A stretch of DNA of 61,142 bases from a virus: positions 1-61,142 of IMG/VR virus record IMGVR_UViG_3300032116_000194. One strand, 5' to 3'. Under the pieces are notes generated by a model. It saw nothing but the letters and a program-made list of their open reading frames with translations, was not told the DNA's origin and searched no databases. Position 1 is the first letter of the stretch. Each line of letters begins with the position of its first letter. The translations under genes were made by a program, and so were the position numbers. Below are positions 16,004-61,142 of this stretch, one piece after another.

Positions 16004-16364
16004 CGATGACGGAAAAGAATACGACATAGCGTCGTTTGCCCCAGTACCACTGGATTCCGTTCAAGTCGCTCCCCAACCTGCGAGCCGCAATTTCACAATC
16101 TCTCCTCCAAGTATTGACGGTAAAAGCTGCAAAGAATACACGATGAGCATCCAGCTCTATGTCAAACAAGACTCCGTGCGCAGCTACACACTCACCACCA
16201 GCTGTGGAAATCCTATCGCTAAGAAGGAATACAAAATTGAGCCTGGCGATACCAAAGAAAAGATCGCTAAAAGAGTCTCTAAAGACTTAGGCATCACCAT
16301 CCCACCGTCAAGTATTTCCAACAAACTTCCGCTTAAAAGAGGCGAAAAAATCACATTTCAATGA
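15951..16364 (+). CDS. Lipoprotein with LysM-like domain, 137 aa
   Basis: Signal MCLKKSILLLCSVSILSC with lipobox ILSC (Cys about residue 18), then DDGKE. ATG 15951 is chosen because it places the signal at the N-terminus. The C-terminal 45 residues resemble a LysM fold (YKIEPGDTKEKIAKRVSKDL, ending LKRGEKITFQ), which binds peptidoglycan. It would tether a lipid-anchored protein to the wall. Stop TGA overlaps the next ATG. Possible spanin-like or exclusion role; lipobox and LysM calls are from visible motifs. Confidence 0.7.
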   Translation, partial: CLKKSILLLCSVSILSCSDDGKEYDIASFAPVPLDSVQVAPQPASRNFTISPPSIDGKSCKEYTMSIQLYVKQDSVRSYTLTTSCGNPIAKKEYKIEPGDTKEKIAKRVSKDLGITIPPSSISNKLPLKRGEKITFQ

Positions 16365-16807
16365 TGCAGTACTGGTTCACAAGTACATCTTCTTCTTGGG
16401 AAAAATTTCGCGCTGAGATAGAACTTGAGTTAGAGGACTATAATATTGAATTTAATAACAATAAAAATTGCTCCAGAAAACAAACGAAGAAGCGTGACAT
16501 TTTCAAAAAACGAAAACACATCACCGACAAAGTAAAACAAAGAGTCGTTCAAGATGACACTATTCAAGACGTGGATTCTGCTGTTCTGGAAGCAATTATC
16601 TGGGGGGATCAATACCTCCGGTATAAACTTTCCCAAACCTATGGAAATAAACGAAAAAACGCTTCTGAAGTTAGGAGTCGATTCATTAAACAACGCCAGG
16701 GCGGAGGCCTTCCCGTTCCGGAATGGAGTTGGGAAGACGTACGTCGAAATCGAACTGTTCCTAACCAGCAAACTGGGAATAGCGATAGAAGAAGAGTTGT
16801 ATTATAG
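16361..16807 (+). CDS. Hypothetical basic protein, 148 aa
   Basis: Starts in the stop of the LysM lipoprotein. The central part is lysine/arginine-rich (CSRKQTKKRDIFKKRKHITDK). The last 55 residues overlap the gene at 16641 out of frame, so the true end may be functionally unimportant. No family recognised. Stop TAG. Confidence 0.55.
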   Translation: MMQYWFTSTSSSWEKFRAEIELELEDYNIEFNNNKNCSRKQTKKRDIFKKRKHITDKVKQRVVQDDTIQDVDSAVLEAIIWGDQYLRYKLSQTYGNKRKNASEVRSRFIKQRQGGGLPVPEWSWEDVRRNRTVPNQQTGNSDRRRVVL

Positions 16808-17000
16808 GAAAAATACTCCTAGGTACAAATTCACTTTCTACAAACCAAGTATCTTACACCTCATCCAAACTGACGGAACTAGGCAAGATGCTTACAAACG
16901 TGGAATCAAACGATGTTTTCTCCTTCTAAAAAGAATGCACAAAAAGCATTCATCGCAAACCCATACGGATTCCACCTCGCAGAGCACGTCTACAAAATAA
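16641..17000 (+). CDS. Hypothetical protein, 119 aa
   Basis: ATG 16641 gives a natural-looking N-terminus (MEINEKTLLKLGVDSLNNAR). The core is aromatic and basic (YYRKNTPRYKFTFYKPS). The C-terminal 29 residues overlap the next gene. It sits between two out-of-frame overlaps. Unrecognised. Confidence 0.6.
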   Translation: MEINEKTLLKLGVDSLNNARAEAFPFRNGVGKTYVEIELFLTSKLGIAIEEELYYRKNTPRYKFTFYKPSILHLIQTDGTRQDAYKRGIKRCFLLLKRMHKKHSSQTHTDSTSQSTSTK

Positions 17001-17473
17001 GAATGTTGTTTTTGCGTTATGGTTGGCAAGTTCAACTTCTGGAAACAGAGACACGAACGTATCATCCGAATTGCGTGCTAATAATACCAGATACCGGTGG
17101 CATCAATACCAACGTGAGTTACTTCAAAACTCCCGCTCCAGGCATTCCGCCTCAAGATCAGGGTATAGAGTCCTTCCGGTTAAACAGTTTGCATTACTGG
17201 GTAAACAAAAAAGTGCCAATTATTGGCTTAGGTTACTCAGCTTTCCTTACCTTTGCAGAAGTTTGTGGAGGTAATCTGCTTTGCGGTTCTGACGGTCTAT
17301 CCTTTATGCACCGCAATGACGTGGATATTTACGAGACGAAATTCTTTGGCAAAAGAGCTGCTGGCCTTGTTGATTATCAAATTGACGAGAGTCTCATCAG
17401 CCTTGCCGAGTCCCTTCTTCCAAAGGAGGCACCGCCGGAGGACGAAGTATTGGTATCGGTGCCCATTTTATAA
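16913..17473 (+). CDS. Degenerate class I glutamine amidotransferase-like protein, 186 aa
   Basis: Compared with gamma-glutamyl hydrolase (C26)/GATase1 folds, the strand-turn VLIIPDTGGINTNVSYF fits the PGG motif, and VPIIGLGYSAFLTFAEVCGG fits the nucleophile elbow (usual pattern PxxGxCxGxQ...GG). The elbow reads GLGYSA, so the expected nucleophile Cys is absent and glutaminase activity is unlikely. It might bind a gamma-glutamyl ligand or act as a structural partner. The ATP-grasp gene at 31701 is a possible companion. Last gene before TGA begins to be used as Trp. Stop TAA. Confidence 0.55.
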   Translation: MFSPSKKNAQKAFIANPYGFHLAEHVYKIRMLFLRYGWQVQLLETETRTYHPNCVLIIPDTGGINTNVSYFKTPAPGIPPQDQGIESFRLNSLHYWVNKKVPIIGLGYSAFLTFAEVCGGNLLCGSDGLSFMHRNDVDIYETKFFGKRAAGLVDYQIDESLISLAESLLPKEAPPEDEVLVSVPIL

Positions 17474-17475: not shown

Positions 17476-17787
17476 ATGGAAATTAATAAATCAATAGCTG
17501 TTTACGTTCGCGACCGAGTGTGAGTCTTGCGACGTAAAAAAGATCTTTTGCCTTTAAATGTGAGTTATACTGTTGACGGTCTTAAATGGACCGCAAACAA
17601 AATGGGGAAATCCCTGTTTTATAAGAATGCTCGTGTTTTCAAAGGTAGAATAATCTCAGAAGACGGACCATTAGTTGAGAATCCAGATGTGTTCTATGAA
17701 CCATTTGATGCAATAGATCACTATAATCTCGATCTGAGAAAAGCCGAACTAAGGAATTTAGATAAAGCATTAAAGATGCTATACTAA
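17476..17787 (+). CDS. Hypothetical protein, 103 aa; first gene with TGA read as Trp
   Basis: ATG 17476 opens a frame (MEINKSIAVYVRDRV) that reaches TGA at 17521 and continues VLRRKKDLLPLNV to TAA. Without recoding it would have to start at a TTG and lose its N-terminus. The conserved look of the body (VSYTVDGLKWTANKMG, GRIISEDGPLVENPDVFYEP) suggests a real small domain, unrecognised. It marks the left edge of the recoded region. Confidence 0.65.
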
Positions 17788-17800
17788 ATAGGCTGCTTAG

Positions 17801-17826
17801 CCCCGATCTTAGAAGAGGGGTATTGT
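17801..17826 (+). terminator. Weak intrinsic terminator
   Basis: CCCC (17801-17804)/GGGG (17817-17820) stem followed by TATTGTT. Confidence 0.4.
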
Positions 17827-17845
17827 TACATTAAATGTATAAATT

Positions 17846-18451
17846 TTGGAAAATAATCGACTATACAAGGCCTTTATGGTAATCTCAACTATTATCGGGT
17901 TAGTTCTTACCTTAGGCTTGTTTCACAAAAACAACGATCTAAAAAAGGACTTTCTTGAAATAAAATCGCGTACTGATTCTATGGCCATAACCATAGATTC
18001 TATGCGGTTTGAGCTTAACAACCTTAGAGAAACCCACCCCTATCAAAACAAACGGTGGAAGTCTAAGAGAACAGGTCTGTGTACCGAGGGCAATTTCTTT
18101 GGGTTTTTACTTTATACTCCAGTGGATACTAACATATCTTCTGAGTTCGCTATCGCTCTTTCTGATTGAAAGGGCCCAGTAGCTAAAGTAAATTCTGTGA
18201 GAAGGCACTCGAATTGTAAAAGTCAACATTACCACGGTAAAGCAATTGACTTAGCGTGGGATGAGACTGTTATTGCCTTCTTACTATCCGAAGAAGGTAG
18301 GTCTTGGCTAAAAGAGCATGAGGTAACTTTCTATATAGAAGGCAAACCCGGGAGCAAAAAAGTACGTCGTTATCTTTACGATGAGGTTGCTTCTGAGTAT
18401 GTATTCTTTAACCCTAATGCTAGCGGAGACCACATACATTTAAATATCTAA
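17846..18451 (+). CDS. M15-type zinc peptidase with membrane anchor, 201 aa (TGA at 18167 as Trp)
   Basis: Predicted peptidoglycan peptidase (D-Ala-D-Ala or L-Ala-D-Glu type). An N-terminal helix (AFMVISTIIGLVLTLGLF) is followed by a coiled segment. The catalytic domain has the M15 motifs SQHYHGKAIDL (pattern SxHxxGxAxD) and GDHIHLNI, where His residues bind zinc. Reading TGA 18167 as Trp (ALSDW-KGPV) joins the anchor to the catalytic half; otherwise the enzyme is split. TTG 17846 or ATG 17876 may start it. It is followed by a terminator and a small one-helix protein, so it may belong to a lysis unit. Confidence 0.8.
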
Positions 18452-18461
18452 TACTGATAGT

Positions 18462-18483
18462 GGGGGGAGAAATCCCCCCTTTA
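18462..18483 (+). terminator. Intrinsic terminator
   Basis: GGGGGG-agaaat-CCCCCC followed by TTTAT. Confidence 0.75.
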
Positions 18484-18496
18484 TCCATACTAAAAT

Positions 18497-18742
18497 ATGG
18501 AAGCTATCTTTTTTGTCCTCTTATCAACGATCGCAGGTTCGTTGTTTAAGCACTATCTGGAGCCCGTGGTGTTAAACAAAGCGGCTCATCTTTTCCCTCA
18601 ATCTAATATCTTTAACACTAAACCAGAAACAAAAGTAGAACCTACGGAGTTTAATAACGTAAGGTTTAAGCGCACTATCAATGGATATACAACAATCTAT
18701 GTTTCGAGTCCAACACGGACAGATACAACCTACGTCAGGTAA
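18497..18742 (+). CDS. Small membrane protein, 81 aa
   Basis: The N-terminal helix (AIFFVLLSTIAGSLFKHYL) precedes a polar C-terminal part of about 55 residues. The end overlaps the DNA polymerase start by about 60 nt. By place and topology it could be an accessory of the neighbouring peptidase; no family recognised. Confidence 0.6.
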   Translation: MEAIFFVLLSTIAGSLFKHYLEPVVLNKAAHLFPQSNIFNTKPETKVEPTEFNNVRFKRTINGYTTIYVSSPTRTDTTYVR

Positions 18743-20561
18743 AGAACTCACCAAAGAGATCAAGTCCTGAGACATAATAGCTTTAGATACAGAGGTAACT
18801 GGAGATTTTGATAATATCTTTGATAGAAGAATTGTCATGCTGCAGTTTGGTAACAAAGAAGTTCAGTACATTATAGACACAAGGAAAGCGGACCCCACTA
18901 AACTCCTCAAAGAATTATCCAAGAAAAAGATCATAGGTCATAATATTAAGTTCGACTACCAAGTTATAAAGACTAACTATGGGATTGAGCTTGAAGATCT
19001 ATTCGATACCATGCTTGCAGCACAAATACTGGAGTGTGGGATGGATGAGGAGAAGGGACATTTTACCCTAGAGCAAACCGCTAGACGCTACACAGGGTAT
19101 CATTACTACTCCAATCAAGGTAACTTATTTATTCCAGCAGTTACCAAAAAGATAAGGAGTTCTTTTTCTAGTATAGGAGATAAACCGTTTGAGTTAGAGC
19201 AGCTCTATTATGGAGCTCTTGACGTTTCGGTTGCATATCTCTTGTATGAGAAACAGAAGATTCAGCTTGAGAAAAATGAGCTTGAGTCAACAGCAGAGCT
19301 AGAGTTCAACTTCGTGAAAGTTCTTGCTGATATGGAATTGAGTGGTGTATATCTCAACCAAAAACAGTGGTTAGAGAATTATCGCAACACACTACAACAA
19401 ACCGAAGAATTGCGAAAGAAACTGGAGGAGTATCAACAACTAAACTGAAACTCCCACAAACAGGTTTTACCTGTACTCAAAGAGCTTGGTGTTGACGTGT
19501 CGATTATAGACAAGAAAACAGGTGAGATAAAGGAGTCTGTATCTCGTGAAGTCTTAAAGAAGCAAACAGCTAAGGCTGGTATTCTGAAGACTTATCTTGA
19601 CTATAAGCTTTCCCAAAAGGAATCATCTACCTATGGTGAAAAGTTTTTAAGGCACGTCAACCCAACTTCTCAAAGAGTTCACTCTTCTTATATGCAAATT
19701 ATGAGAACTGGAAGAACTTCTTCTACTAACCCTAATTGCCAGAATATAAAACGAGGATCTATATACCGATCAGCATTTCAAGCTGAAGAAGGTAACACCT
19801 TTGTAGGTGCAGACTTCTCTAATATAGAAGCAAGGATACTTGCTGATAAGTCTAATGACGAGAACTTTATTAACATCTTTATAAACAATGGTGATTACCA
19901 TTTAGAGACTGCTAAACTAGCTTTTGACAATCCTAATCTAACTAAAGGATCTGAAGAAAGACAGTTAGCAAAGACTATTAACTTCGCAATTGCTTTTGGT
20001 GCCGGAGCTAAGAAAGTATCAGAAGGTGCTGGAGTTACTTTACAGAAAGGAAAGGAACTATTAAATAAAGTTTATACTGCTTTCCCAAAACTTAATCCTT
20101 ACTTTATAGAGATGGGCAATCTCACAAGGGAAAGAGGATATGTTGTGTGTAATGAAGTATCAAAAAGAAGAAGTTATATACCGTTTTATAATGAATACTT
20201 AGAAGCTAAGAAACATTATAACTACTTTAAAGCAATGGGTTGGGATCCTCATCCTACTATTGCATCAGCATATAAAACTTGGGATTCTAAAATACAAAGA
20301 TGGTCACAAAACTTGCCTGTCCAAGCTACCGCTGCTGACATAGCAAAAGCCACTTGTATAGAACTCAGAGAGAAGTCTAAAAAAATACCGTTTAATCTGG
20401 TGTTATTCGTACATGATGAGGTAGTAATAGAATGTGAGAAAGACAAAGCAAACACTATTGCTAAACTCGTTGAGAAGATCGGATTACAATCGTCGCAGAA
20501 ATTCCTGAATCATTTAACAGTCCCTGCAGAAGCTCACGTATCTTCGCAGTGGGAAAAGTAA
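18681..20561 (+). CDS. Family A DNA polymerase, 626 aa (TGA at 18768 and 19446 as Trp)
   Basis: Replicative polymerase. Exonuclease motif ALDTEVTG lies near residue 35, followed by HNIKFDY and further exonuclease segments. Polymerase motif A is VGADFSNIEAR (about 375), motif B is RQLAKTINFAIAFG (about 430), and motif C is VHDEVV (about 577). Two TGA codons read as Trp (EIKSW-DII and QLNW-NSH) are needed to join the exonuclease and polymerase halves; the second falls in the conserved block before the palm. ATG 18681 or 18699 may start it. Ends TAA. One of the strongest supports for TGA as Trp. Confidence 0.95.
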
Positions 20562-20565
20562 GACC

Positions 20566-21651
20566 ATGCAAGAAGCAACAACGTTTTTTGTCGTCACCAT
20601 TCTTTCGATGGCGGCAGCACTTGGCTTTTTCTTCTATAGAGCCAAAAAAGACCCCCAGAATAAAAATCTGGAACCGGGCGCAGTTCTTATAAAATTCTTT
20701 ATAACCTATCCCCTAACGGTTTTCATAACCCTGCAATTAATCGCTATGATCTCAGAGGCAGCTTTGCTTGCTTCTATCCAAGACAAAGACATCAATGTAA
20801 CTGCTCGTATGACAGTTCACATGTTCCTAGCTGTTGTCGGCGGTTTGGGTGCGTTTGTTATGACAAAATACTTAGGTTCGGTCATCAGCGTTTTCTTCAT
20901 TAAAGAACCGATGCCTAAAAAGATCGGCTTGTTCTTAGGCAGCTCTATGCTGGCTTTGATATCGCTATTCTTTACCATCGGTTCTCCAATATTCAATCTG
21001 CACGCAATGGCACACTCGCTAAAGCAAACTGCAGAGCTTGAAATATTTCTCACATCTTTGTGGGTAATGCTGGGTATAGACCATCCTAATCACCTCACTT
21101 TCCTACTTTCTAAACACCATCTTCCATTAGACTACTCCCCGTTTCAGAATTTGCACTCCGGCGTAGTAACCAGTCTTGCCTTGAGCACAACTCACCTGCT
21201 GATAACTTTGTGGGAGGTTCTTGTGACTCTGACCCTTGCCATTAAGAATGACGGCATTCAGCACGCAATTCTCGGCGAGTTCTTCAATGTTCCCCCTGTA
21301 AAGGATGAGAAGAAAGAGGAAAAGAAGGAAGAGAAGAAGGAAGAAAAGAAAGAGGAGAAGAAAGAGGAAAACATTGATGCTACCAAAGTTAAGGACAAGG
21401 TACAAGAGCTTCTCAAAATTCACGGTATGACCGATCCAAAGAGGATTGACGATACAGCTCAGAAACTTGTTCCTTACATCTACAAACAGGCTGATGCTGG
21501 TTCAGTGAAGAAAGTCGCTGACCTTATGAACTTCATTCACAAGTATCGTGAGGCAGAGAAGAACAAACAAAACACTCAACCTATTAAGGATGAGATTCAT
21601 GACCTCGTAAAGGGCCTGACTAACGGCAGTTTCACCTTACCAAAAAACTAA
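20566..21651 (+). CDS. Multi-spanning membrane protein with KKEE tract, 361 aa
   Basis: Four to six hydrophobic helices lie between residues 5 and 235 (for example FFVVTILSMAAALGFFFY and LIKFFITYPLTVFITLQLIA). A low-complexity KKEE repeat (about 248-268) links to a soluble C-terminal domain of about 90 residues (VKDKVQELLKIHGMTDPKRI). No sense TGA. Location beside the polymerase suggests a membrane platform or host-interaction role, unproven. Confidence 0.75.
   Translation: MQEATTFFVVTILSMAAALGFFFYRAKKDPQNKNLEPGAVLIKFFITYPLTVFITLQLIAMISEAALLASIQDKDINVTARMTVHMFLAVVGGLGAFVMTKYLGSVISVFFIKEPMPKKIGLFLGSSMLALISLFFTIGSPIFNLHAMAHSLKQTAELEIFLTSLWVMLGIDHPNHLTFLLSKHHLPLDYSPFQNLHSGVVTSLALSTTHLLITLWEVLVTLTLAIKNDGIQHAILGEFFNVPPVKDEKKEEKKEEKKEEKKEEKKEENIDATKVKDKVQELLKIHGMTDPKRIDDTAQKLVPYIYKQADAGSVKKVADLMNFIHKYREAEKNKQNTQPIKDEIHDLVKGLTNGSFTLPKN
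21306..21371 (+). repeat. KKEE-coding low-complexity repeat
   Basis: Purine-only AAGAAGGAAGAG-type units encode about five KKEE repeats in the membrane protein. Such tracts vary by slippage. Confidence 0.8.
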
Positions 21652-21695
21652 CGGGCGTAACGTGTGACTATTGTAACAACACTAAAGTAAAATCG

Positions 21696-22358
21696 GTGTA
21701 CGCCAATACAACTAATCCGTGGAAAGATTTTTACCATGGCGATTGTAGAAGCTGCTTCGAGGTTAGGTGGCTAGACGCTGCGGGGATATGTGAGAAATGT
21801 AATAGAGGCAATTCAAAACTCTCTTTACGTACTCTAAACATTTGCGATAGTTGCATTACTGCAAATAAAATATCCCCAATATGCAAAAGATGTGCTTCAA
21901 TCGTTGAAGAATATGCTGAAGGTACTACTGAATGTATACAGTGTGCTTACGGTAAAGACTTTAAACCTGATCCACAATACGCCACTGGTGTGTGTATACA
22001 ATGCAAACGCGTTACGCACTTAGACGGTGATGAAACCTGCTTAAGCTGCCATATAATAAATTCGGCGGCTAATGCGCAAAACAACGACTGGGGTAACCTA
22101 AAAAGATGCGGTTGTGGAGAAGTAATTCACAAGAAGCAAAAGGTATGTCCCAATTGTGCAAGCAAACCTATAAATTTGCGTAAGGACAAGCTGTGTCACG
22201 GCTGTCAAACGCACTTCAAACCAATATCTATATACGACACCTTCTGCATACCTTGTAAAGAAAACATTCATCGAGGTGTGTGTACCTCTTGTAGAGAGCT
22301 TTCCAACTCTATGGACTCAAGGGGCTGGTGTTCTAAATGCCAATCATCTAATGGATAA
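21696..22358 (+). CDS. Multi-zinc-ribbon protein, about 220 aa
   Basis: At least nine CxxC knuckles (CRSC, CEKC, CDSC, CKRC, CIQC twice, CLSC, CPNC, CHGC, CIPC, CTSC, CSKC), an array of short zinc ribbons of rubredoxin/TFIIS-like spacing. The open frame extends upstream with another CxxC (TCDYC) before GTG 21696, so the true start may be a non-ATG codon near 21650. It overlaps the SF2 helicase start by 8 nt. Zinc-ribbon arrays commonly bind nucleic acid or polymerase; role here not known. Confidence 0.7.
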   Translation: MYANTTNPWKDFYHGDCRSCFEVRWLDAAGICEKCNRGNSKLSLRTLNICDSCITANKISPICKRCASIVEEYAEGTTECIQCAYGKDFKPDPQYATGVCIQCKRVTHLDGDETCLSCHIINSAANAQNNDWGNLKRCGCGEVIHKKQKVCPNCASKPINLRKDKLCHGCQTHFKPISIYDTFCIPCKENIHRGVCTSCRELSNSMDSRGWCSKCQSSNG

Positions 22359-23496
22359 AAGAACTCAAATGCAGGAGGAAGCAGTTGCCTCCTGAAAACA
22401 AAACAATGGATGGGGTACCCTGTTGATATATACGGGCGGGGGGAAAACACGATGCGGCTTAATGGCTTACCAAGATTTAGGCAAGCCCAGAACATTAGTG
22501 GTCACCTCCCGCCTGCCCATTCTAAATCAATGGAAAGAGGTTATGACAGGAACTAATATAAAGTTTATGTGTATCCAATCTGCCTACAAGCATAAAGGAT
22601 ATTACGACTTAGTTATAATAGATGAGGTTCATAGATCTTTATCACCTAAATATAGGGAAGTATTTAGCGGCATAAAAGCTAAGCATTTAATGTGCTTAAC
22701 AGCCACACTTCCAGAAGAAGCAGAGTATGTAGAGTTCTTAGCTAAAACTTGTCCAGTAATTTATGAGAAGAAGCTAAAAGATGCTTTAAAGGATGAGATG
22801 GTTCCTCAGTTTGAGATATATAACTTTTCAGTACCTCTACACAAAACTATATCTGGTAAGTACAAACTCTTTGACAATAAGTTTACGCAGTCAATGATAA
22901 AACTTACTAGAGTTCTAATGGATAATCCTAAACTGAAATCAAAATACAAAAATGTTTTTGAGTTAGCTCAAGCTGCTCAGTGGGCTTCTTTTGATAAGGA
23001 GACACAAGGATTATGTAAATCTTATTGGGCTGGGATGACTATGCGAAAGCAGTTAGTTTATTCTAATCCAGCGAAGCTAAAAGCAATTCGAGATATACTA
23101 AACCACATGGGGATGAGTCGCAAGTGGATAATCTTCACTAAGTCCATTGCATTTGCTAAAAGTTTGCAAGAGTATTTAGGAGGTAACACTGCTATATACC
23201 ACTCAAAACTAAAACCAATAGAAAGAGAATTAAACTTAATAGCATTTGAACAAAATCAGTTTAATATTCTTATAGCAGTTGACGCTTTAAACGAGGGATT
23301 AAATGTCTCGCAGGTAGAAGCAGCTATTTGTGCTGCTGGCGTATCTACAGAGTTAACAAATTCCCAGCAGTTAGGGCGAATCATACGTCCTGAAAAAGGA
23401 AAAAAGCCCGTGTTTATTAATCTGTACACAGAAGGTACGGTTGAGAAAACTTGGGTAGAAAAGAAACTTAAATCAAGCGGATTAAAAAGCAGATGA
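22351..23496 (+). CDS. SF2 DNA/RNA helicase, 381 aa (TGA at 22393 as Trp)
   Basis: DEAD/DEAH-like ATPase motor. ATG 22351 with TGA 22393 as Trp gives MDKRTQMQEEAVASWKQNNG, the expected Q-motif lead-in. Walker A is YTGGGKTR (about 25-32), motif II is IIDEVH (about 91), motif III is TATLP, and the C-terminal domain ends with QQLGRIIRPEKGK (motif VI). It reaches a TGA at 23494 that overlaps the next ATG. If that TGA were Trp the protein would run 27 residues more, to TAG at 23575-23577. The same gene therefore may hold a sense and a stop TGA. Confidence 0.9.
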
Positions 23497-28773: not shown

Positions 28774-28792
28774 CTAAAACAATATAATCACT

Positions 28793-29371: not shown

Positions 29372-29377
29372 TGATTA

Positions 29378-29408
29378 GGGCGATAGGAGAAATCTTATCG
29401 CCCTTTTC
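29378..29408 (+). terminator. Intrinsic terminator
   Basis: GGGCGATA (29378-29385)/TATCGCCC (29396-29403) followed by TTTTC. Confidence 0.8.
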
Positions 29409-29455
29409 TATTTTACCTGGTGGGTAAAGAGTGGTTCGATTCCGCTCATAAAAGC

Positions 29456-51600: not shown

Positions 51601-54600
51601 TTCTCAATGTTAGTATCCTTATTATTTACACTGTTAGGAGATGGAGTTCTTAATCCAAATCCTCCAGATATTTTTGTAAGATTACCATCGCTATCTTTAG
51701 ACCCTATGAAAATATCAGATAAATCTTCACTAGTTAAAATATTAGAGTGAGGTATTTTTGTTGGATCAGATATAACATTAAGATAATTAACAATAGCTTT
51801 ATATCTAGCTGATTGCTCTAAGCCTCTTTGTTCTAAAGACGCCGCGTAAGTTCTTAATCTAGATTTCAAATCCTCTGAAATTAAAGGATTATTTGCTCCT
51901 CTGTTATCTCTTCTAATAAAAGTTATTGGTCCCAGTAATGTGGCAGCTTCAATACTTGTATTTGATTGTGTACCATTAGCTGTAGTTGTATAGTTGACTT
52001 TATAATTTCTAAGTAAAACTAGCTTACCAGCTCTCTCCCCTTGATCTATAGAAGCTACTAAGTTTTGAGATCCTATATCATTAAAAACACTTTGAGCAGG
52101 CCCTTTAAAAGCCCTTGTGTCATGCTTCCATTTTCCTTTGTCGTCTTTAACTCTATTTAAATCGCCGTGAATTAAAAAGTCAAGTTCTGAAGCAAGTTCT
52201 AATAGTTTTGGATCAATGCTTTCTCTTTTTAAGTCTGGAAAAAGATTTTTAAAACCTGCTTGTTTATTACTTAACAAAGTTATTGTTTTCATAGATTCAT
52301 CGTGATGAGCATCTGAAAAAACTTTAACTAAAGTATGCATAGGAAAAAACTGCATGTTTTGATAAACAACAGGTTCGCCAGCTTTTATCTTTCTATAAAC
52401 ATCAGGTAAGTAAGCGGATTTAAGTAAAAGATCTTCAAACTGTTTTAACTTATCTATAAAGTCGTAAAGCGGTTTGTATTTCTCGTCATTACTGTTAACT
52501 GGTTTTGTTGCTAATTGTATGAACTGAGGCTTAACAACATTCCCAGTTTTTAACTTGATGTTTTGTATTATTAAATAAGGTACTCCAGGTCTAGGTAATT
52601 TACTTGCAGGTATGTCTTTTCCAAATACTTTTCTTGCATCGTTTATACTTTTAAAAGCTATTATTTTACAATACCTAGAAAAGTTTTTAATAACTTCTTC
52701 AGCGTTTTCTAAAGCATCTCTCCCCCAAACTTGGTCTATATATTTTTCAAGTAGTGGTGCTCTAGAAATTTTACCGTCAGAATCTAGCATATCTGCTAAG
52801 TCTTCTTGTGGTTTACCATCGTATGTGTATTTTATACCTTGACTTCCTTCTTGTACGTACAATGTTTCATGACCAGTAACTTGTCCATTTATTTTATAAA
52901 TGTTATACAAGTTTGTATTTTGTAACGTAAATTCTGGAAGTTTCGAAGTGTTTATACCAACATTTCTCTCGAAATCTCCAAGTTCTTTGTCGTTAATAAC
53001 TCCAACAATTTGATAGTAAGTGTTCCCGCTATCACTCCCTGTTATTTTTTTTACCAAAACAACACGCTTTGCCTCTTCTCCAGTAGCCTTTCTAGAATTA
53101 TCTATAAAGACCATTAACTCATCTCCAATACTTAGTGGAGGTATACCGGAATCTTCGTTTCCTTCAAATATAGTAAAAGCTGGATTTTCTAAATTATACG
53201 GTTGAGACTTTTGAGAAACTCCTGTAGGTGGAGTACTGGGTGGTAAATTATTGTCAAAATTAATAACGACTGGTTCATTTATTACATGGAGTCCAGATTC
53301 TTCTTGTGGTTGTTGATCAAAACCCACTGAAGTTCCTTCGTTATCTGTAGCAGTTTTATTTTCTCCCGGAGCGTCTGGAGTTTCGTCTGGAGTTCTTTCT
53401 TCACTAGGTTTAACTGACTCTTCTTTAGCGGCTGGTCTAGTAATATCAACAGAAACATTTCCAGTTATTTCTGAGAGTACTTTTATTTGCTCATCTAAGT
53501 TTTTTATAGCTTCTTCCGATAAATTATCTTTTTTAGGATAGGGAGCTACTTTAGGATCTACAAAATGTGTTGCTCCTTTAGTGTTAGCAAGGTGCGCATA
53601 TGATGTTGCTCTTGAGGTTGCTGCATACATCCATTGGTTGTATATTGTTGGATTAGAAAAGTTTTTATTATCTTCAACAGATATATCAACGTATACCTCA
53701 TCAACCGTGATTCCCATAGCACTTGGCGCTAAAAGAACGTCAGCGTCAGGTAATGCTTTTTTATACTGCTGTAATTTTTCTTCGTTACCAACAATAATAA
53801 CTCTACTTCTTTGTGGATTAGCTGCCTTAGATTCAGCAAACTTTTTTACAATGCTTGTACCTGCTTCTGCATAAGTACCAAATATATTAATCATACTAAC
53901 CGATGGGTCTAAAGAAGACGCGGTTGGTATTTGACTAATTGGCGTGTCAGATTTAAATGCATTTTGTAAATCAACAACTTCAGAAACGCCAGAACGATAC
54001 GTAGTAGATAGGGGTGTTATTTGTTTTAAATTTTGCGATAATGCTACAGAATGTCCTAAGGGATCTCCTTTAGGAGTTCTTTGTCCTTTTCTATATTCAG
54101 CTTTAACCTCTTCAGTTCCTTCATAATATTCTTGTTCAGTAGTAACAAAGTTTGCTATATAATTATCATCTAAAGCTGGCTTAGATATATTTCCAGAAAC
54201 AGGTTGATTAGGGTCGTATAAAAATAAATATTTAACTCTGTTGCCTTTAGTTGTATTATTATACTTATTTACAGCTCTAACAAAATTGTTTATGTCCCCC
54301 CTATTTAAAGCCCCAGCTTCATCTACTATAATAAATTTTACTTTTGGGGACAATGTTCCGTTTTCTAATTCAGTGGTTAAATCCGTTATTTTCTTTGGAT
54401 TATCTGGATGTCCCAATGATTCCGCAATATTTTTTGCAGCTTTATCATAAGCAGCCGCACTTGCAATTTCTTCATTAGCATACCCCATTACATATTTAAA
54501 TAGTTTGGAAACTACTAAAGATTTTCCAGCTCCAGCTGGAGCTTTTAAAGCTGCTCCATTTTGAAATATTTCTGCATCGGAAATAACGCTAGAAGAAGCA

Positions 54601-57600
54601 AAAGTGACAAGCTCTCGAACTACTCTAATTTGAGAAGATGAAGGAACTGGAGCAGTCGGATTAGCTTTTAAATATTCTCTAATCTTTGTTAAAAATCCTA
54701 CGTGACTAAATCCAGATTCTTGAGCATCTTGTATTTGTGCTATTCCAACAAAAGCAGCATGAAGATTTATAAGGGCCAGTAAAGTTTCCTGAGGAACTTT
54801 TCCGTTATAGTTTTTAATGTTCTCTTTAAACTTAATAACATCATAATCTTTATTAAATTCTATTAGCGGTCCTAATACACTTTTATCCGGTTCCTTTTTT
54901 TCTATAACATTTAAAACTTGAAAAATACCTCTCAATGGGTTCTTTACAGCTTCCGATTTTATATAGTCGTCGTACACAGCTGGAGTAGCTGAAAGTGTTC
55001 CTGCTATATCATTGATAAAATCTAAACCATTTAAAAGCTTTGACAAGGTGCCTCTTAAAGCTTCAGCTATTTCATCAGCTCTTTCATCTTCGGTTAATAA
55101 ATCCATAACAGCCATAGAACCTAGTATAGGATCTGATTCTATAAGTTGCGCTAAAGAAACATCTTTAATTACTTTAGTTTTAGGCCTCTCTGTTTCAGTC
55201 TCTTTATTTTTTAAAGCTTGTAATTTTGCATTATATTCATCGTTAATCTTAGCGTATTGTCGAGACGTACCAATTTTGCTATCTAATTCCTGTTTTCTAT
55301 TATCCAAGTAGGCGTCCGCATCCGCTTTATTGTTGAATATTTTTAATCTTACAACTGGGGCTTTGGATAGTTTCCCATCCGTCATCTCCCCATACTCAAT
55401 AACTCTTTCTATTATAGTATAACCATCTCCATTATTTTCTGCAATCTTTGGGTCATAATCGTCAGCTAATAGAGATTGCTGAACAATAATTATCATTTTC
55501 TCATCAAATTCTTCTCCGACTTTTGATGAATTAGGGTTATCTTTATTAATAGGAGTTCCTTTAGTAGAACGCTTTACGGAATCCAACTCTCTGCTCTTTA
55601 ATGCGTCTAATTCTTTCTGCCATGATTTTCTTATGGCCGCTTCTTCTACTGCGGTATCTTCTGTTTGTTCAGAAGTAATAACTATTTCATTAGTATTAAG
55701 CGAATCGGCAAAAGATAACACAGCTTCAGCATAGTGAAGATCTTCTTTCTTATTCTTAAGTTCTATATTTCTTACATTTTCTTTTGTAAGTTCGAGCAGT
55801 ATCTCTAAATCTTTAATTATATCTTCAAGTTCTTTAGCAGTTTCCTTATAAGGTTTTTCTTCTATTTTAGATAATGCTTTTTCGTGTAGAGCTTTAGCAA
55901 AATTTAATTGTTTTTCAACAGCAGAAACATCGTCATAAAATTGAGAAATACTTCCATCTTCGTACTCAGCAATTTCAAAAAGCCTTTTTGGACCTTGAAG
56001 AAGCTCATCTAATACATCTTGTACATAGTCAGAGTCAGATTTAGATATATCATAAATTGATATTTGAGAGTCTATTTTAGATTGCATTTCTTTAAAATCT
56101 CTCATTTTATTTTTTGCTCTTCTAAAACTTATAAGCTCAGAGTACAATTTTGCATCTTCTTCTGTTATAGTATTTTCCGCTTTTTCATTTACTAGCATAT
56201 CTTCAAGATCCAATAAAGAATCTTGTTCAGTCATACCTCCCCTTACAAGAAGTTCTTTTTCCTTTTGTTCTATAAGAGAAAGAGTTGTGTTAATCGCATC
56301 TTTTAATTTTAAAGCTTGATCTGGATATATAAAGGTACCTTCTTTAGTAACTTTATCATAAACATCCATAACCGACTCTATTACATCTTCTAATCTATTT
56401 TCATTTAGTTTGATATAATTTATTAAATCGTTTAAGTGATCAGCATAAAACATAGTTCTTGCTGTATCCAGTTTGTTTTTTTGCCTAAGCATGTTAGAAC
56501 GCTTTGCGACAAAAGATTTAAAACTTTGCGGTGTAGTTTGATCGTTAGCTAAAAAAGTTTTTGGGCCGTCTCTAAGTGTTTTATACTCAGAAAGTTTATT
56601 AGCTGATACTAATTTATTGTACTCTTTAAGTCCTTCTCTCGGATTAGTTAATCTATCATAAACTTTACCTAAGTCTTCAATTGCATCATTGAGGTCTTTT
56701 TTCTTAGTAACTAATTCTGCAAGTCTAGCTTCTTCAGGCGAAGTTTTTGGACTTTGTTGTTCTCTACCTTCTAAATTATCTGTAGAAAAAGCATTCATTA
56801 TCCAACCAGCTTTTTGTTTATTAGGTATCTTTGAAGATACATCTAATATCTGCCTATCTAAATCTTCAACTAAAGAATAAAGATTTACTAATCTATTTCC
56901 AATTCCTCCAGCATAATTTTTAAGCATTTGAAATCTTGCTTCATCTTTTTCTCCATAAACTGGAGCAACCATGCCGTTTGTAGTCTGTAAGTAATTAGCT
57001 TCAAGTTTAGCTACATGTTCCTTATAAAACTCTATCCTATCATTTACTTCTTGTGGGGAATCTATTCCAAATCTTTTAAGTGAAGCTTCGCCCATGTCTT
57101 TAAAAGATTCGAGTTTTTTCATAAGCAAATCAGTGCTTCCACTCTTAAAAGCAGTTTGAGCTAAATTAGAAAGTTTTTCTAATTCGTACAACTTTAACTT
57201 AATTGGATCTGGTTCTTGTTTCATAGCTTCCAAATCTATTAAATTATCTAACTCTCCTTGAACTCTCATGTTAGCTGTGAACTCAGCAGCTTTTACCATG
57301 TCTTTCATGACATTTCCTTGATCATCAAGTTTTACTCCCCCACGTATTACATAATTACCATCTTCATCTAAAGACACTTGCTCAGCAATAGTATTATACT
57401 GCTCTTCATCTATTTCAGTATTTGTGTCGCCGACTTGATGAGTGTATTTAACAGTGCCATCAGGTTGTTCTTCCCTTGTAAGTTTTCCTTTCGTATCGTC
57501 TTCGTTTTGTACTAAAGAAGTGTTCACAAAATCTGTGTAAGCTTTGTTGAGGTCTTCTTTAGCTTTTTGTTTTTGAAGTCTTTCGTTTTTTGCTTCTCCC

Positions 57601-58895
57601 AAAACACCTCCCCCAAATGGTCTTCCAACAACAGGTAAAGAAGTGGCAATAGCAGATCCACCACCAATAAGTGCACCGGCACCTACTGCTTTTATGCGAT
57701 CTTCATCCGTCATGTATATACCTTCAGACACTAAATTATTAAGTGCGGAGTAAGCGTTTTCTAACCAGCTTTGTTTAAAGTTGTTACCTTCATTTACTTT
57801 TTGATTGGAATACTGTATGTTTTCTTCCATACCTTCAGAGAAAGCTTGGATAGCGAGTTCTTTACCCAACTTCATATAATCTCCTCCTCGTCCTTCCATG
57901 TATTTTTTAAAGCCCGTTGCTTTTGAAGGAGCTGCTTCTATAAAATTATCTAATGTTGGGGAATCTGCTAACTTTAATCCAAACTTGTTAGCTCTGCTAG
58001 CAACAGCCCCTTTAGATAATAAAGGTCTAAATAACCTAATAAAAGCTGTATCTGTAATTGCCCCCAACACCATGTCAGAGGCAAATACATTACCAAAATT
58101 TTTATCTGCTATTTGAGCTATTTGCTCGTCAGTGTAATCATTTTTACCAGCGTCCCTATCTGCCTTTAGTTTAGAAACAGTAGCTTTTCAAGCGTCATGA
58201 GCTTCAGCACCAGATTCATGTGTCCTTAACAAAGTTGATGCAATTCTTTCATCTAAGACACTAACAATTTTAGCATAATTATTTGGACGTAGTGTTTGAA
58301 AAAGTTTTGTATAACTAAGTGGTTTAGCTAAAGATGAAACTATTCTTGCTCCGAATCCTACTTTTCCTAACCAAGCTCCTCCAACAAGACTTTCAAATGA
58401 AATGCCTATCGTTTCTCTTAAAGAAGTGCCCAATTGCCCAGGATCACTGAGCTGTTGCATAAAAGTTCTTTCGTCAAAACCCATTTCTCTAAAAGTTGGA
58501 AAAGCGTCATCTATAGAATAACCTAAAGATTCATTAAGATCTCTTAATAAATTTGCATCGTATCCTTCTGAAAAAGTAGTTTTAGGATTTCCATCTAATA
58601 AATTCATTGCTCCATGACCTAAAGAACTTACCCCAGTAGCTAAAGCGACTGGAGCTTTTAAAGTTCTTAAACCTAGATTTCCTGCAAAGTTAAAAAATGT
58701 ATTTAATCCTGTTTGATTATTAAACCTAAGATTTTGTTGGTCTTCGTAATCTCTAAGACCTGAGTCATAGTAATTTCCAAATAGATTATTTAAAAATGTA
58801 TTTGCAGAGTTCATTCTTTCACCTTTTTCTAAGTAAGCCGGTTCTTTAAAAGCAGCTGACGTAGCAGGTGATATAAAATCGCTAATTTTTGGCAT
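45600..58895 (-). CDS. Giant virion RNA polymerase polyprotein with SF1 helicase and zincin domains, 4431 aa (TGA at 58188 as Trp)
   Basis: The largest gene in the window. About residues 4245-4255 read YYHGSDYDIDTLFV, the DxDxD catalytic core of the crAss-like two-barrel RNA polymerase. About residues 1445-1460: APAGAGKSLVVSKLF (Walker A), then FIIVDEAGAL, LFLYDPNQP, TTYRSG and YAATSRATSYAH (about 1755), an SF1 helicase. About residue 2910: VVRHELFHKIFW, an HExxH zincin. The N-terminus contains a glycine-rich hydrophobic stretch and coiled coils. TGA 58188 as Trp (AHDAW-KATV) adds 235 N-terminal residues. In characterised crAss-like phages the virion polymerase transcribes early genes after injection; the helicase and protease domains may assist entry or self-processing. 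Confidence 0.9.
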
Positions 58896-58910
58896 ATATA
58901 ATTTTATTTA

Positions 58911-60869
58911 TTAGTCTGATTGTGCTTGCAAAGCTTCGGCAGTTAACATCCATTTAGTGTCTCTAGGTAGTATGTTCATAAAAAGATCTTTCATAATAAA
59001 CATCTCCATTGCATTTGGTCCAAGAACTGAACCATCATCTGCCAATATTGGCTCTGCCTCTATTTCAGGTTGTCCTTTTTCATTTCACCTAGCTTGGTGA
59101 AAACTCACTACTTCTCTACCATTAACATAAGATTTTTTTGAAACAACGTACGCTGGCGTACCATCAACTTTTTTACCAAAAGGAATTGGCGTACTACCTT
59201 TTCCATTTATTAATGGTCTAAATAATTGATCTAATAATTTTTCTTGAGCGTTTTCAAAATCATTTCTAGCAGGAGCTATAGCATAAACATCTGCAGAACT
59301 TCCATCAAATGCGCCGGATGCAGCTGGATTTGGAATGATTACTGAACCACTAGGAAGATGTGTTGTGTATCCCATAGCAAAACCTAAAGCTGGTTGCTTA
59401 GATTTAATAACTCCTTTTTTCTCTTGTTCTGGGACTACTAAATTATTGTATATAGTTTCTTTATCTGGACCGGTATACTCTGTTATTTCTCCAGTATCAG
59501 CTGAAATTTTAAATACTTTTGATGTTCCTGCTTTTAGCCCTGGAAGTAATCTATCTGCAGCTTCTTGTGCAGCGCTAGTAGTGTTAAACGCCACATAATG
59601 TACATTAGACATTAAATTATTTTCCTTTTCCTCTTTATTATAAAGATTAATCAAATCTTTATCCGACATATTTGGATTAGCTTCTTTTATAGATTTTAAC
59701 CTGTCTCTGTTAAGCCCGGAATATTTTGGAGAAGTCATTAATTCAGAATATGGAATTGGCACGTCTTTTAATGGTTCTAAAGCTTTAGATAAAACATCAA
59801 GTTGTGGATTGACATACGCACCTAAAGTAAGAACTCCTTGCATAAATGGAGAAAGTTCTCCATCTGCTTTTGAAGTTGGAGCTAATGCTGGAGCAGCCGC
59901 TCCATTACCCGCAACTTTTAACTTACTAGTAACAAATCCACCATTATTGTCCATATCTACACCAAAGCCTTGTGTTTTAGCTTTAGTTGCTGCTTTAAAA
60001 GCTTCTTCAGCTTTGTAGTCTCTAACAAATTCATAATCCTTTCCAACTTCAGTAAACCCAGTTCTACCGGGTATAATATTTTGTTCATAGTCAGATGTAA
60101 TAGCTTCTGAAAAAGCATTCGGATCTTGATCTGTCAATTTAGCCAGCATTTGAATATATGATTGATAAGCAAAATCACTGTTTAACATTGCCTTCCAACC
60201 TGTACTAGCCTCCTTATAATCCTTGCCTTTTAACTTAACTTTTTCAAATACATGATAACCATCTAAAGTAACGTCTTGAGTAGCACGCATTTCTTCGGTA
60301 GTTCTTTCTGGAACTTTTGTCATGTACTCTTCAAAGTTTTTAGGCAAGTCATAAGCATTTGGTAAATCTATAGCTTCTATACTACTCCAAATACCTTTAT
60401 CTTTATCGAAAGTAACTCCAGGTTGTTTTTTATACCAAGATTTTAAAGCATTAAATTGTAGCGTATCTATTCCATTTTCTTTTGACCCCAATCTTTTTCT
60501 AGCATTTTGTATAGCAGTTACTTCTGTATTATAATCATTTTGGATAGCGTACATTTCTCCATTAGGAGAGAAGTCAGTTTTTATTTTTCTTTCTAATTCT
60601 CTACGATCTTTAGTGGCTTGAGAATAGTCCCCATTATACTTGCTTACAATAGCATCTATTTCATCACTATATTCTTTCATTTTCTGTGCCGCCCTAGGTT
60701 TATCAGGATCTCTAGCATTAATGTAGGTATCTCTAATTTTAGAAAGAGCTTCGTAGTTAACATCATATTGCTTTTGTGCAGCTTCTAAAGCTGTAGCAAT
60801 AAATTCCACAGGCGGAGTATAAAGGGACGCTTGGTAAGGCGTCCCCTTGTAAAATCTATTAACGGCCAT
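58911..60869 (-). CDS. Large virion-associated (cargo-like) protein, 652 aa (TGA at 59085 as Trp)
   Basis: MAVNRFYKGTPYQASLYTPP leads into a long helical region (ALEAAQKQYDVNYEALSKIR) and a mixed C-terminal part. TGA 59085 as Trp (HQARW-NEKG) adds 58 residues to TAA 58911. Located 15 nt upstream of the RNA polymerase gene in the same direction, as the cargo or internal virion proteins of crAss-like phages are. No domain recognised with certainty. Start overlaps the previous stop by 11 nt. Confidence 0.75.
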
Positions 60870-61142
60870 ATCTTCCTCCTTTTTTCATTTTACCTCCTGA
60901 ATAATATCCTTTTAATATTCCTCCAAGATATTTAGTAGCTGGGGTAGTTTCAGTCTTAGCTGCAGCGGGAGCTTCTTCTGCTAAGTTAACTTTTTCTCCG
61001 TTCATAATTCTTCTATAAACATCTGGGTACATTGTTTTTAAAATATTTAGTACGTCTGTACCTTGCTGCTTCTGATTTAACGCTGTTCCGAATCCTCCAA
61101 GAGAAGTCATCGCGTTATCCCAAGCCTCTTTATATGCAGCTC
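60859..61142 (-). CDS. Partial gene, C-terminal 93 aa
   Basis: The frame is open from the right edge (AYKEAWDNAMTSLGGFGTAL) to TAA at 60859, so its start lies outside the window. The C-terminus is glycine- and lysine-rich (GYYSGGKMKKGGRYGR). Same leftward unit as the virion genes. Unrecognised; probably structural by context. Confidence 0.7.
   Translation of the reverse strand, partial: AAYKEAWDNAMTSLGGFGTALNQKQQGTDVLNILKTMYPDVYRRIMNGEKVNLAEEAPAAAKTETTPATKYLGGILKGYYSGGKMKKGGRYGR

Follow-up and report, generated by a model that had tools for sequence, protein, structure and literature searches.

A 99.6-kb crAss-like phage probably reads UGA as tryptophan (Trp) in its replication and virion genes by means of a tRNA that carries two anticodons, an architecture that recurs elsewhere. 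The arm in the anticodon position (UCA) would read UGA on the ribosome, and the loop of the long variable arm, which repeats the anticodon loop of tRNA-Trp, would together with G73 supply identity for the host tryptophanyl-tRNA synthetase. Dozens of further viral contigs, a large share of which are UGA recoded, have the same architecture, and there seems to be an amber version, in which long-armed tRNAs carry a tRNA-Gln CUG loop beside a CUA anticodon. With a little less confidence, we think it likely that these tRNAs form a widespread, undescribed phage class, defined by a stop-reading anticodon and an in-register variable-arm hairpin in which the parent tRNA's identity anticodon is retained (CCA/UCA and CUG/CUA), such that decoding and charging are split.

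The window, that is, the whole 61,142-nt stretch of DNA analyzed here, is a fragment that can be completed from relatives to a circular genome of 99,633 bp, and L161 and L176 confirm the join at window position 1. The genome shows crAss-like features (a crAss-like TerL and a circle near 100 kb) and a crAss-like layout (replication and virion blocks that are opposed, with giant proteins). The best match for TerL was Cellulophaga phage phi14:2 (35.1% over 96%), and the other matches, among those listed, were mostly Crassvirales or Flavobacterium Fpv-type phages; four zeta phages that are tabulated as opal but lacking a suppressor did not appear by name among the 60 of 146 TerL matches listed. 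A PHROGs search with four right-arm proteins and a megablast search against a phage collection returned no match.

We found that long frames in the right part of the window are joined only if TGA is read as sense. In the chosen gene models there are 24 in-frame TGA codons, all in the right part, with 19 on the plus strand between 17521 and 34447 and 5 on the minus strand (40865, 44995, 45424, 58188, and 59085). Those at 34384 and 34447 lie within an overlap with the preceding gene and are avoided by choosing a later start. The 29 gene models of the left arm contain no sense TGA and 39 TGG codons, and 11 of them end in TGA. The initial annotation was thus right about sense TGA on the right and TGA stops on the left but gave higher numbers for both (27 and about 15, respectively). 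It also described a clean partition, which fails on the right side, where 4 of the 26 models in the recoded plus-strand block stop at TGA (23494, 29720, 31043, and 32439), each at an ATGA overlap. All four are TGA in the related genome G3 as well. On the minus strand, in the window and beyond, no model of 34 ends in TGA.

Table 1. Gene blocks and recoded genes in the window
Feature	Position	Strand	Pfam match
Left arm: 29 standard-code gene models, 11 with a TGA stop	117..17473	+	
Recoded replication block: 19 in-frame TGA codons in 26 models; 4 TGA stops, at ATGA overlaps	17476..35513	+	
Family A DNA polymerase; TGA at 18768 and 19446	18681..20561	+	PF01612, PF00476
Helicase; sense TGA at 22393; TGA at 23494 (ATGA) as a stop or for readthrough	22276..23496	+	PF04851, PF00271
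AAA_24 (Sak4-like) gene; TGA at 27361, 27899, and 27974	27241..28773	+	PF13479
Toprim primase; TGA at 29746, 30088, and 30562	29719..30687	+	PF13155
PDDEXK-like nuclease; TGA at 32985, 33108, 33156, and 33750	32799..33812	+	PF12684 (below its cut-off)
2016-aa protein; TGA at 40865 (site unaligned in G3)	35576..41626	-	
1329-aa protein; TGA at 44995 and 45424	41620..45609	-	
4431-aa protein; TGA at 58188	45600..58895	-	
652-aa protein; TGA at 59085	58911..60869	-	

The partition of TGA use appears to be largely real, and codon swaps relative to G3 are better evidence for it than P values or code-blind checks. The ratio of TGA to TGG differed between the left arm and the plus-strand block (0/39 versus 19/51; P = 1e-4) and less clearly between the left arm and the minus strand (0/39 versus 17/186; P = 0.08), but these values rest on models chosen by code, and the left-arm models, as standard-code open reading frames, are TGA free by construction. 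With automatic gene calling, reading TGA as sense raised coverage from 0.77 to 0.82 in the left zone and from 0.81 to 0.90 in the middle zone (in G3, from 0.78 to 0.86 and from 0.81 to 0.86), so the two zones were not separated in either genome. A third-codon-position test, applied to every TGA so as not to depend on gene models, was underpowered, as 272, 295, and 1045 TGA triplets in the three zones were short or unaligned and a further 14, 32, and 18 had too few changes; it scored a single TGA, at 91821 in TerL, as coding on both sides.

Comparison with G3 and with more distant proteins supports, at the level of sequence, a reading of TGA as Trp in the right part and as a stop in the left arm, as initially annotated. 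In the right part, three TGA/TGG swaps and no TGA/Ser swap were found relative to G3; of the 36 TGA codons compared, 33 aligned. The primase codon at 30088 is TGG in G3, and position 60387 in the gene for the 652-aa protein is TGG in this phage and TGA in G3. In the left arm, two of seven aligned TGA stops (5398 and 5834) are TAA in G3; of these two, one sits at an alignment-block edge. In the DNA polymerase gene, the matches to PF01612 and PF00476 extend across the two TGA codons, at which crAss001 has Leu (18768) and Trp (19446), and the helicase TGA at 22393 corresponds to Trp in phi14:2 and Val in Fpv20. Distant crAss-like relatives have Trp at 6 of 38 residues aligned to TGA sites, and all three aligned TerL proteins have Trp at TGA site 35. 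Across 175 TGA columns in loci with this type of long-armed UCA tRNA, scored in nonoverlapping gene models, Trp was the leading residue, with a share of 0.283 in this phage's clade and 0.289 in other phages. The DNA_pol_A profile matched only 9 of 50 records and was therefore of little use as a test of recoding, although one record (G024) has three TGA codons inside the match. Since left-arm TGA functions as a stop, we rejected as unlikely the idea that the host itself uses code 4. The AAA_24 gene is apparently split by a group I intron bearing a GIY-YIG open reading frame (PF01541); the intron match was under its cut-off.

The initial annotation saw no suppressor tRNA in the window. This was borne out, but the record is a fragment, and a tRNA lies outside it, about 4.3 kb to the left. 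When the completed genome was searched for a TCA anticodon, the check proposed at that stage, ARAGORN (default settings) found exactly one tRNA on the circle, 94 nt long with anticodon UCA, and the same single 94-nt UCA tRNA was found in G3. It has a long variable arm tipped by a tRNA-Trp-like anticodon loop, a C-C mismatch that closes the anticodon stem, and a G1-U72 acceptor pair (A1-U72 is common in the viral set). A BLAST search with this tRNA returned eight phage records at E values up to 0.1, among which the only tRNA-Trp was that of MD18 (E = 6e-3). TrpRS/TyrRS, release-factor, and SelA domains had no match in the three phage records.

ARAGORN labels the tRNA as selenocysteine, and it matches the Rfam tRNA-Sec model at 36 bits, under the cut-off of 47. 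Class II tRNAs bearing G73 usually accept serine, and Ser has a share of 0.092 at the TGA columns of this phage's clade (43 sites). It is nonetheless very improbable that this is a selenocysteine or serine tRNA and that TGA encodes Sec or Ser. No Ser codon stands opposite TGA in G3, Trp leads at the TGA columns both in the clade and in other phages (where Ser falls outside the nine leading residues), and the phage side, at least, offers no SelA domain. We rejected this reading.

A viral scan that took no account of the variable arm gave 42 contigs, and in 41 of them (29 of the 30 unique ones) that arm has UCCAA. ARAGORN called a UCA tRNA in 37 of the 42 but not in L159, L185, L248, L249, and L251, and all 37 have UCCAA. 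The first scan had found TCCAA in 13 of 24, with TCCAT in L112, and another yielded at least 120 loci, 80 of which were examined. By comparison, UCCAA occurred in none of 274 class II tRNAs (Ser, Leu, and Tyr) among the loci listed. A further set consisted of 45 unique viral tRNAs selected on TCCAA; all 45 have G73, and pairs 2 to 5 outside the 7-nt loop were paired in 44, 43, 43, and 40. The identity elements of tRNA-Trp are G73 and CCA in the anticodon loop (PMC9976931); this TCCAA-chosen set has G73 and a CCA loop, but that loop sits in the variable arm and the anticodon arm reads UCA. The set contains 41 distinct hairpins, in which pairing of the inner four positions reached 94.5% and 71 cells had changes on both sides; none of 500 shuffles scored as high, and pairing was 43 to 47% when the register was slid by one column. 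A BLAST search with one such tRNA, that of L152, matched 21 phage records; in 19, the match began in the CCA hairpin and extended to or near the 3' end (14 annotated as tRNA-Trp there, 2 without a feature, and 3 in unannotated records). Eleven unique cellular SelC-like tRNAs also have UCCAA in the variable loop, but out of the viral register (pairs 1 to 5 formed in 2, 3, 8, 3, and 3 of 11). A coding density gain of at least 0.10 with TGA as sense was seen in 33 of 48 tRNA loci versus 5 of 31 controls (P = 7e-6), and 15 of the 48 gained less. The 48 loci are not independent, as several tRNAs are identical and four come from this phage's clade, and the controls include L112, with its TCCAT form, and two SelC-like tRNAs (L067 and L070). 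The two hairpins, their register, their covariation, and an association with recoding are visible in the sequences compared.

We weighed two other readings of the second hairpin. In one, which we consider unlikely, suppression is ordinary: for charging, TrpRS would rely on G73, the acceptor stem, and two bases of the UCA anticodon (C35 and A36), and the CCA hairpin would be a functionless relic of an anticodon-arm duplication. Viral contigs do contain class I (short-armed) UCA tRNAs that lack a second hairpin (ARAGORN confirmed 26 of 27 pattern hits), and 8 of 22 such loci show a TGA density gain, so the second hairpin is not obligatory; moreover, both arms of some long-armed tRNAs read as near copies of the tRNA-Trp arm. 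A relic would be expected to drift, however, and the loop persists in 41 of the 42 contigs, which were selected with no regard to it, across differing acceptor and D-arm sequences, while the stem beneath it (in the set chosen for the loop) changes on both sides. A CUG loop in amber tRNAs would require a second coincidence. The other possibility, less likely still, is a switching tRNA whose hairpins trade places under the D arm, so that one fold would decode UGG and the alternative fold UGA. From the CCA hairpin onward, the AGGGGC group indeed resembles ordinary tRNA-Trp, as in the L152 matches above. In the phage studied here, though, the CCA stem lies about 1 nt from the T stem, which is more like a class II variable arm.

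The amber tRNAs came from a scan that gave at least 120 stretches, in which all 120 listed were examined. Among the matches listed, CTGA, as in the tRNA-Gln CUG loop, was present in all 13 long-armed amber tRNAs and TCTGA in 10 of 13, versus 13 and 1, respectively, of 274 class II controls among the loci listed. Among the loci listed, reading TAG as sense increased density in 11 of 12 amber loci versus 33 of 103 controls (P = 9e-5), and reading TGA as sense did so in 5 of 12 versus 34 of 103. The hairpin stem in this set is short and interrupted, and the residue test at TAG covered 13 sites only.

The initial annotation proposed that left-arm genes may be translated before a suppressor appears. 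Gene turnover could equally explain why the left arm lacks TGA sense codons, because this is the part of the genome most diverged from G3. In this explanation, turnover rather than timing is at work: left-arm genes are accessory genes, recently swapped with standard-code phages, that have had no time to gain TGA. We regard it as plausible, if somewhat short of probable. Left of 14.7 kb, the G3 alignment consists of nine blocks, eight at 74 to 88% identity and one at 94.7%, with unaligned gaps between them, and to the right the blocks are 92 to 99% identical. Against turnover, a 95%-identical block contains the models between 14.8 and 17.5 kb; none of these requires sense TGA, and one stops at TGA. 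The suppressor tRNA is on the other strand, within the first ~4 kb of the minus-strand unit, and replication genes (DNA polymerase and primase) already need TGA suppression.

This phage shares with the recoded crAss-like phages described in the available text of Yutin 2021 (PMC7886860) and PMC12386605 (zeta group) the reading of TGA as Trp, mostly in part of the genome, the presence of phage suppressor tRNAs, and introns beside recoding. Replication genes are recoded here, and Yutin 2021 likewise reports a recoded zeta PolB. Those sources, as far as available, also describe recoded genomes with no detected suppressor, for which they offer strong divergence of the suppressor as a possible explanation; the present phage, by contrast, has a long-armed tRNA that ARAGORN labels selenocysteine. 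With tRNA-Sec (SelC), as described in the parts available of PMC7609411 and PMC5330540, it shares the UCA anticodon, long variable arm, and G73, but the phage-type variable loop has CCA in anticodon register, the acceptor usually begins with A1-U72, phage TGA aligns with Trp, and no SelA domain was found in the phage. The tRNA-Trp genes of Proteus phage Stubb and Phaeobacter phage MD18 share the 3' part from the CCA hairpin and G73; unlike the two-hairpin tRNAs, they have a single anticodon arm, with CCA. A tRNA-Trp with a 4-bp anticodon stem decodes UGA (PMC13092985), and this phage's tRNA is likewise mismatched at the top of the anticodon stem; that tRNA-Trp has anticodon CCA, and the available text mentions no second hairpin. 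Two anticodon arms, one for a stop codon, have also been claimed for a chloroplast tRNA-Ser GCU (PMC10228390), which is a plastid tRNA rather than a phage suppressor and for which the available text proposes no identity role. Our literature search found no description of a phage two-anticodon suppressor.

Taken alone, the UGA partition adds another case to a phenomenon that is already known. In suppressor tRNAs, the anticodon change that allows a stop codon to be read can damage recognition by the synthetase, so that decoding and identity clash; if our proposal is true, a second, identity-bearing anticodon would resolve that clash. Two-anticodon tRNAs could explain recoded phages that seemingly lack a suppressor, and the two-hairpin architecture provides a simple signature for finding them. 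The layout also suggests a design principle for genetic-code expansion.

The window is a 61,142-base virus record, and its DNA polymerase recurs, unchanged or nearly so, in three IMG/VR contigs. G001 (57,133 bases) and G002 (86,941 bases) were >99.9% identical to the window across the overlap, and G003 (90,596 bases) aligned in blocks at 74 to 99% identity. Joined in sequence, the window, G002, and G001 closed a circle of 99,633 bases, and the join at window position 1 was confirmed by two additional contigs that span this position, L161 and L176. In window coordinates, a plus-strand unit carrying genes for DNA polymerase A, helicases, a Sak4-like AAA protein, a Toprim primase, and a uracil-DNA glycosylase ends at 35.5 kb, while minus-strand models (giant proteins, TerL, GroEL, GroES, and ThyX) run from ~99.3 kb down to 35.6 kb. 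The closest match to TerL was that of Cellulophaga phage phi14:2, at 35.1% across 96% of the query length. The Sak4-like gene is apparently split by an intron-like element, listed in the table together with two ribozyme matches. In another record, Bohxovirus sp. 'endotrachealis' (L033; PV686213.1), the alignment to the phage's TerL crosses a stop codon and six hypothetical proteins overlie TerL; this public record may therefore be recoded yet annotated with the standard code.

Coordinates and properties of the zones, RNA genes, and other features
Feature	Location	Strand	Properties
Left arm	window 117-17473	+	29 models; stops TAA 11, TGA 11, TAG 7; sense TGA 0, TGG 39
Recoded plus-strand block	window 17476-35513	+	26 models; stops TAA 18, TGA 4, TAG 4; sense TGA 19, TGG 51
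Minus strand	from 35.6 kb on, partly beyond window	-	34 models; stops TAA 25, TAG 9, TGA 0; sense TGA 17, TGG 186
Pistol ribozyme, candidate	window 1065-1123	+	30.7 bits, below cut-off 34.5
Twister-P3 ribozyme (left arm)	window 3284-3347	+	49.8 bits, cut-off 39.9; also in G003
Group I intron match with GIY-YIG ORF	window 27561-28423		37.3 bits, below cut-off 50; ORF has two in-frame TGA codons of its own
Suppressor tRNA candidate	L014:3424-3517	+ in L014	anticodon UCA, 94 nt, ARAGORN
tmRNA, phage-encoded	L014:2352-2598 (circle 96179-96425, outside window)	+ in L014 (- on circle)	Rfam 62.9 bits, cut-off 47
tmRNA, other two-hairpin-tRNA phages	L155:987-1411; L158:6634-7007; L189:7557-7980		ARAGORN calls
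Long-armed CUA tRNAs with tRNA-Gln-like CUG loop in variable arm	L261, L266, L276, L280, L282, L295, L297, L310, L317, L333, L347, L365, L370		

We compared the use of TGA among the three zones. The left arm differed from the plus-strand block in sense TGA/TGG (Fisher P = 1e-4) and weakly from the minus strand (P = 0.08), P values that are soft because left-arm models are standard-code open reading frames, TGA-free by construction. With automatic gene calling, the gain from reading TGA as sense was about equal in the left arm and in the middle. The initial annotation had counted 27 in-frame TGA codons and about 15 left-arm genes ending at TGA; both kinds of codon are present, at the lower counts of 24 sense TGA inside the window (those at 34384 and 34447 avoidable by a later start) and 11 TGA stops among 29 left-arm models. 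Against G003, the 36 sense TGA codons of the circle faced 30 TGA, 2 TGG, and 1 GGA, with 3 unaligned, and in the reverse comparison TGA of G003 faced one TGG and one GCA; TGA/TGG thus accounts for three of the five differences and a Ser codon for none. Among 38 residues aligned in distant relatives with TGA masked (phi14:2, Fpv20, crAss001, Azobacteroides phage, and Bohxovirus), Trp and Gly came 6 times each, Lys 5 times, Phe and Ala 4 times each, Leu 3 times, and Ser twice, besides ten others. All three phages that align at TerL site 35 have Trp in that place, and Trp also stood at DNA polymerase 256 (crAss001), helicase 40 (phi14:2), and primase 124 (phi14:2). Seven of the 11 left-arm TGA stops aligned with G003, as TGA in five and TAA in two (one at the edge of an alignment block). 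These swaps and residues bear out the earlier claim for Trp on the right, as the two TAA do for stop on the left, and the best reading of the sequence is that TGA would be a stop in the left arm and Trp beyond it.

The border is not as clean as first described, since four TGA stops (23494, 29720, 31043, and 32439) lie within the recoded plus-strand block. All four form ATGA overlaps with the next start, and all are TGA in G003 as well, a conservation that is uninformative because the following gene overlaps there. Another TAA or TAG comes 8 to 26 codons downstream here and 7 to 26 in G003; these may be true stops or sites of short readthrough. Turnover of left-arm genes is a fair rival explanation for the partition. 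If TGA is indeed Trp beyond the left arm, replication genes depend on a suppressor no less than virion genes, and so the suppressor tRNA should be made before or together with the replication block.

No tRNA was detected in the window, in agreement with the initial annotation, which had proposed an ARAGORN search of the complete genome. On the circle, ARAGORN (default settings) found a single tRNA, with a UCA anticodon, outside the window (minus strand 95260-95353, ~4.3 kb to the left of the window's first base), between GroEL and ThyX, and a UCA tRNA of 94 nt is likewise present in G003. ARAGORN labels it tRNA-Sec, and its Rfam tRNA-Sec score of 36 bits is below the cut-off of 47; SelA (PF03841) had no match in G001 to G003. 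Nor did PF00472 (release factor) or PF00579 (TrpRS/TyrRS). The variable arm has a 6-bp stem and the loop CTTCCAAAA, which includes the tRNA-Trp anticodon loop (pyrimidine-UCCAAA; CTCCAAA in phage tRNA-Trp). A C-C mismatch at its top shortens the anticodon stem to 4 bp, a feature shared with the unusual UGA-reading tRNA-Trp described in the available text of PMC13092985.

We scanned IMG/VR for further long-armed UCA tRNAs carrying such a second hairpin. A first scan found 24 among 80 loci examined of at least 120, with TCCAA in the variable region of 13. When TCCAA was itself a selection criterion, 60 viral and 21 cellular contigs were recovered, 74 of the 81 called UCA tRNAs by ARAGORN. The loop is constant by selection in this set, and the weight therefore falls on a scan that constrained the anticodon loop, long spacer, T loop, and U72-G73-CCA end and left the variable arm free, and on its ARAGORN calls. 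TCCAA was present in 41 of the 42 contigs (29 of 30 when identical sequences are counted once) and in all 37 that ARAGORN called UCA tRNAs; the single contig lacking it had another ARAGORN reading. When C72 was required instead, the scan yielded 7 contigs, all lacking TCCAA; 5 had TCCAT (CCA kept), and 3 had no ARAGORN tRNA call. Not one of the 274 class II Ser, Leu, and Tyr tRNAs in the loci retrieved contained TCCAA.

Among the unique viral tRNAs chosen for TCCAA (n = 45), the stem is consistent with a 7-nt loop, N-UCCAA-N (U33-C34-C35-A36-A37); pairs 2 to 5 formed in 44, 43, 43, and 40, the closing pair formed in 31, and G73 was present in all 45. Across 41 distinct hairpins, 94.5% of inner-four-pair cells were paired (84.1% when six pairs were counted), with both sides changed in 71 cells; 0 of 500 shuffles scored as high, and a one-column slide reduced pairing to 43 to 47%. 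Because double-sided changes keep pairing above all 500 shuffles, the variable-arm stem is, judging from sequence, preserved as a stem. Among 14 unique cellular TCCAA tRNAs, 11 were SelC-like and did not share the phage register (pairs 2 to 5 in 3, 8, 3, and 3 of 11), and three were phage-like and in register (3, 2, 3, and 3 of 3). SelC-like tRNAs with TCCAA came from L197, L198, L201, L203, L205, L206, L207, L208, L211, L212, L213, L215, and L216. The Bacteroides neonati MS4 contig L204 (NZ_HG726020.1), perhaps a prophage, has a two-hairpin UCA tRNA with exactly the sequence of the one in viral contig L191.

Presence of the two-hairpin tRNA went with recoding. Coding density rose by ≥0.10 with TGA as sense in 33 of 48 viral loci of ≥4 kb versus 5 of 31 low-GC controls (P = 7e-6; the loci are nonindependent, as 4 of the 48 belong to the phage's own clade and others share identical tRNAs), and with TAG as sense in 7 and 7, respectively. 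At 175 TGA sites facing another codon in these loci, mean shares were 0.287 for Trp, 0.123 for Tyr, and 0.080 for Phe. Trp reached 0.283 and Ser 0.092 at 43 sites of the own clade; at 132 sites of other phages, Trp reached 0.289 and Ser fell outside the nine leading residues. In comparison columns, TGG sites led with Tyr, Phe, and TGA, and Ser-codon sites with Ser. That Trp leads at TGA sites and Ser is low argues that the class II UCA tRNA is associated with Trp, not Ser.

The phage also encodes a tmRNA ~1 kb from the suppressor tRNA, with a tag of 30 residues ending in LVYA, the same in G003; bacterial tmRNA tags usually end in ALAA. The tags called at three other two-hairpin-tRNA loci have NKVKSLF in common and terminate in FA. 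Phages that recode may thus bring along a ribosome rescue system of their own, with altered tags.

A BLAST search with the two-hairpin tRNA of locus L152 matched 21 phage records. In 19, the match starts in the CCA hairpin and reaches the 3' end or nearly so, at a site annotated as tRNA-Trp in 14, with no feature in 2, and in unannotated records in 3; the remaining two records, both accessions of Bacillus phage Eldridge, matched in the 5' part, to what ARAGORN reads as tRNA-Trp. The phage's own UCA tRNA matched 8 records at E values up to 0.1, one, from Phaeobacter phage MD18, with a tRNA-Trp (85.4% starting at the CCA loop, E = 6e-3) and the others chiefly with the T arm of other tRNAs or with unannotated DNA. 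Since both arms read GGTCTYCAAAACC in several two-hairpin tRNAs, the simplest origin would be tandem duplication of the tRNA-Trp anticodon arm plus one C-to-U change.

The variable-arm-blind scan was repeated for anticodon CUA with G73. Among the matches listed, it supplied every one of at least 13 unique long-armed CUA tRNAs called by ARAGORN in all fetched loci, alongside at least 7 short-armed ones. CTGA occurred in the variable region of 13 of the 13 listed and TCTGA, which we take to be the loop expected for tRNA-Gln(CUG), in 10, versus 13 and 1 of 274 class II Ser, Leu, and Tyr tRNAs. Among the matches listed, 12 long-armed-CUA loci were ≥4 kb; density rose with TAG as sense in 11 versus 33 of 103 controls (P = 9e-5), and with TGA as sense in 5 versus 34 of 103. 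Phages are known to reassign UAG to Gln (code 15), according to the accessible part of PMC9523058. The extension of the two-hairpin design to amber tRNAs is less secure than the UCA case because the variable-arm stem is shorter and interrupted and the residue comparison covers 13 sites only, led by Lys, Asn, Glu, and Gln.

We propose that long-armed UCA and CUA tRNAs are two-anticodon suppressors. The UCA or CUA arm would pair with the stop codon, the variable-arm hairpin (CCA or CUG) would show the parent anticodon to TrpRS or GlnRS, and the two hairpins may swap places below the D arm. Phage recoding is reportedly the subject of Borges 2022. Bacterial Trp identity lies in G73, the anticodon, and acceptor pairs, as stated in the available portion of PMC9976931. 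In the literature searched, as far as its accessible text goes, no phage suppressor with a second anticodon is described; Arabidopsis chloroplast tRNA-Ser GCU is said to carry two anticodon arms in the available section of PMC10228390. The accessible texts of Yutin 2021 (PMC7886860) and the zeta-group paper (PMC12386605) report recoded crAss-like genomes with no detected suppressor and name a very divergent suppressor as one possible reason. The two-hairpin tRNA type is a candidate for this undetected suppressor of recoded crAss-like genomes.
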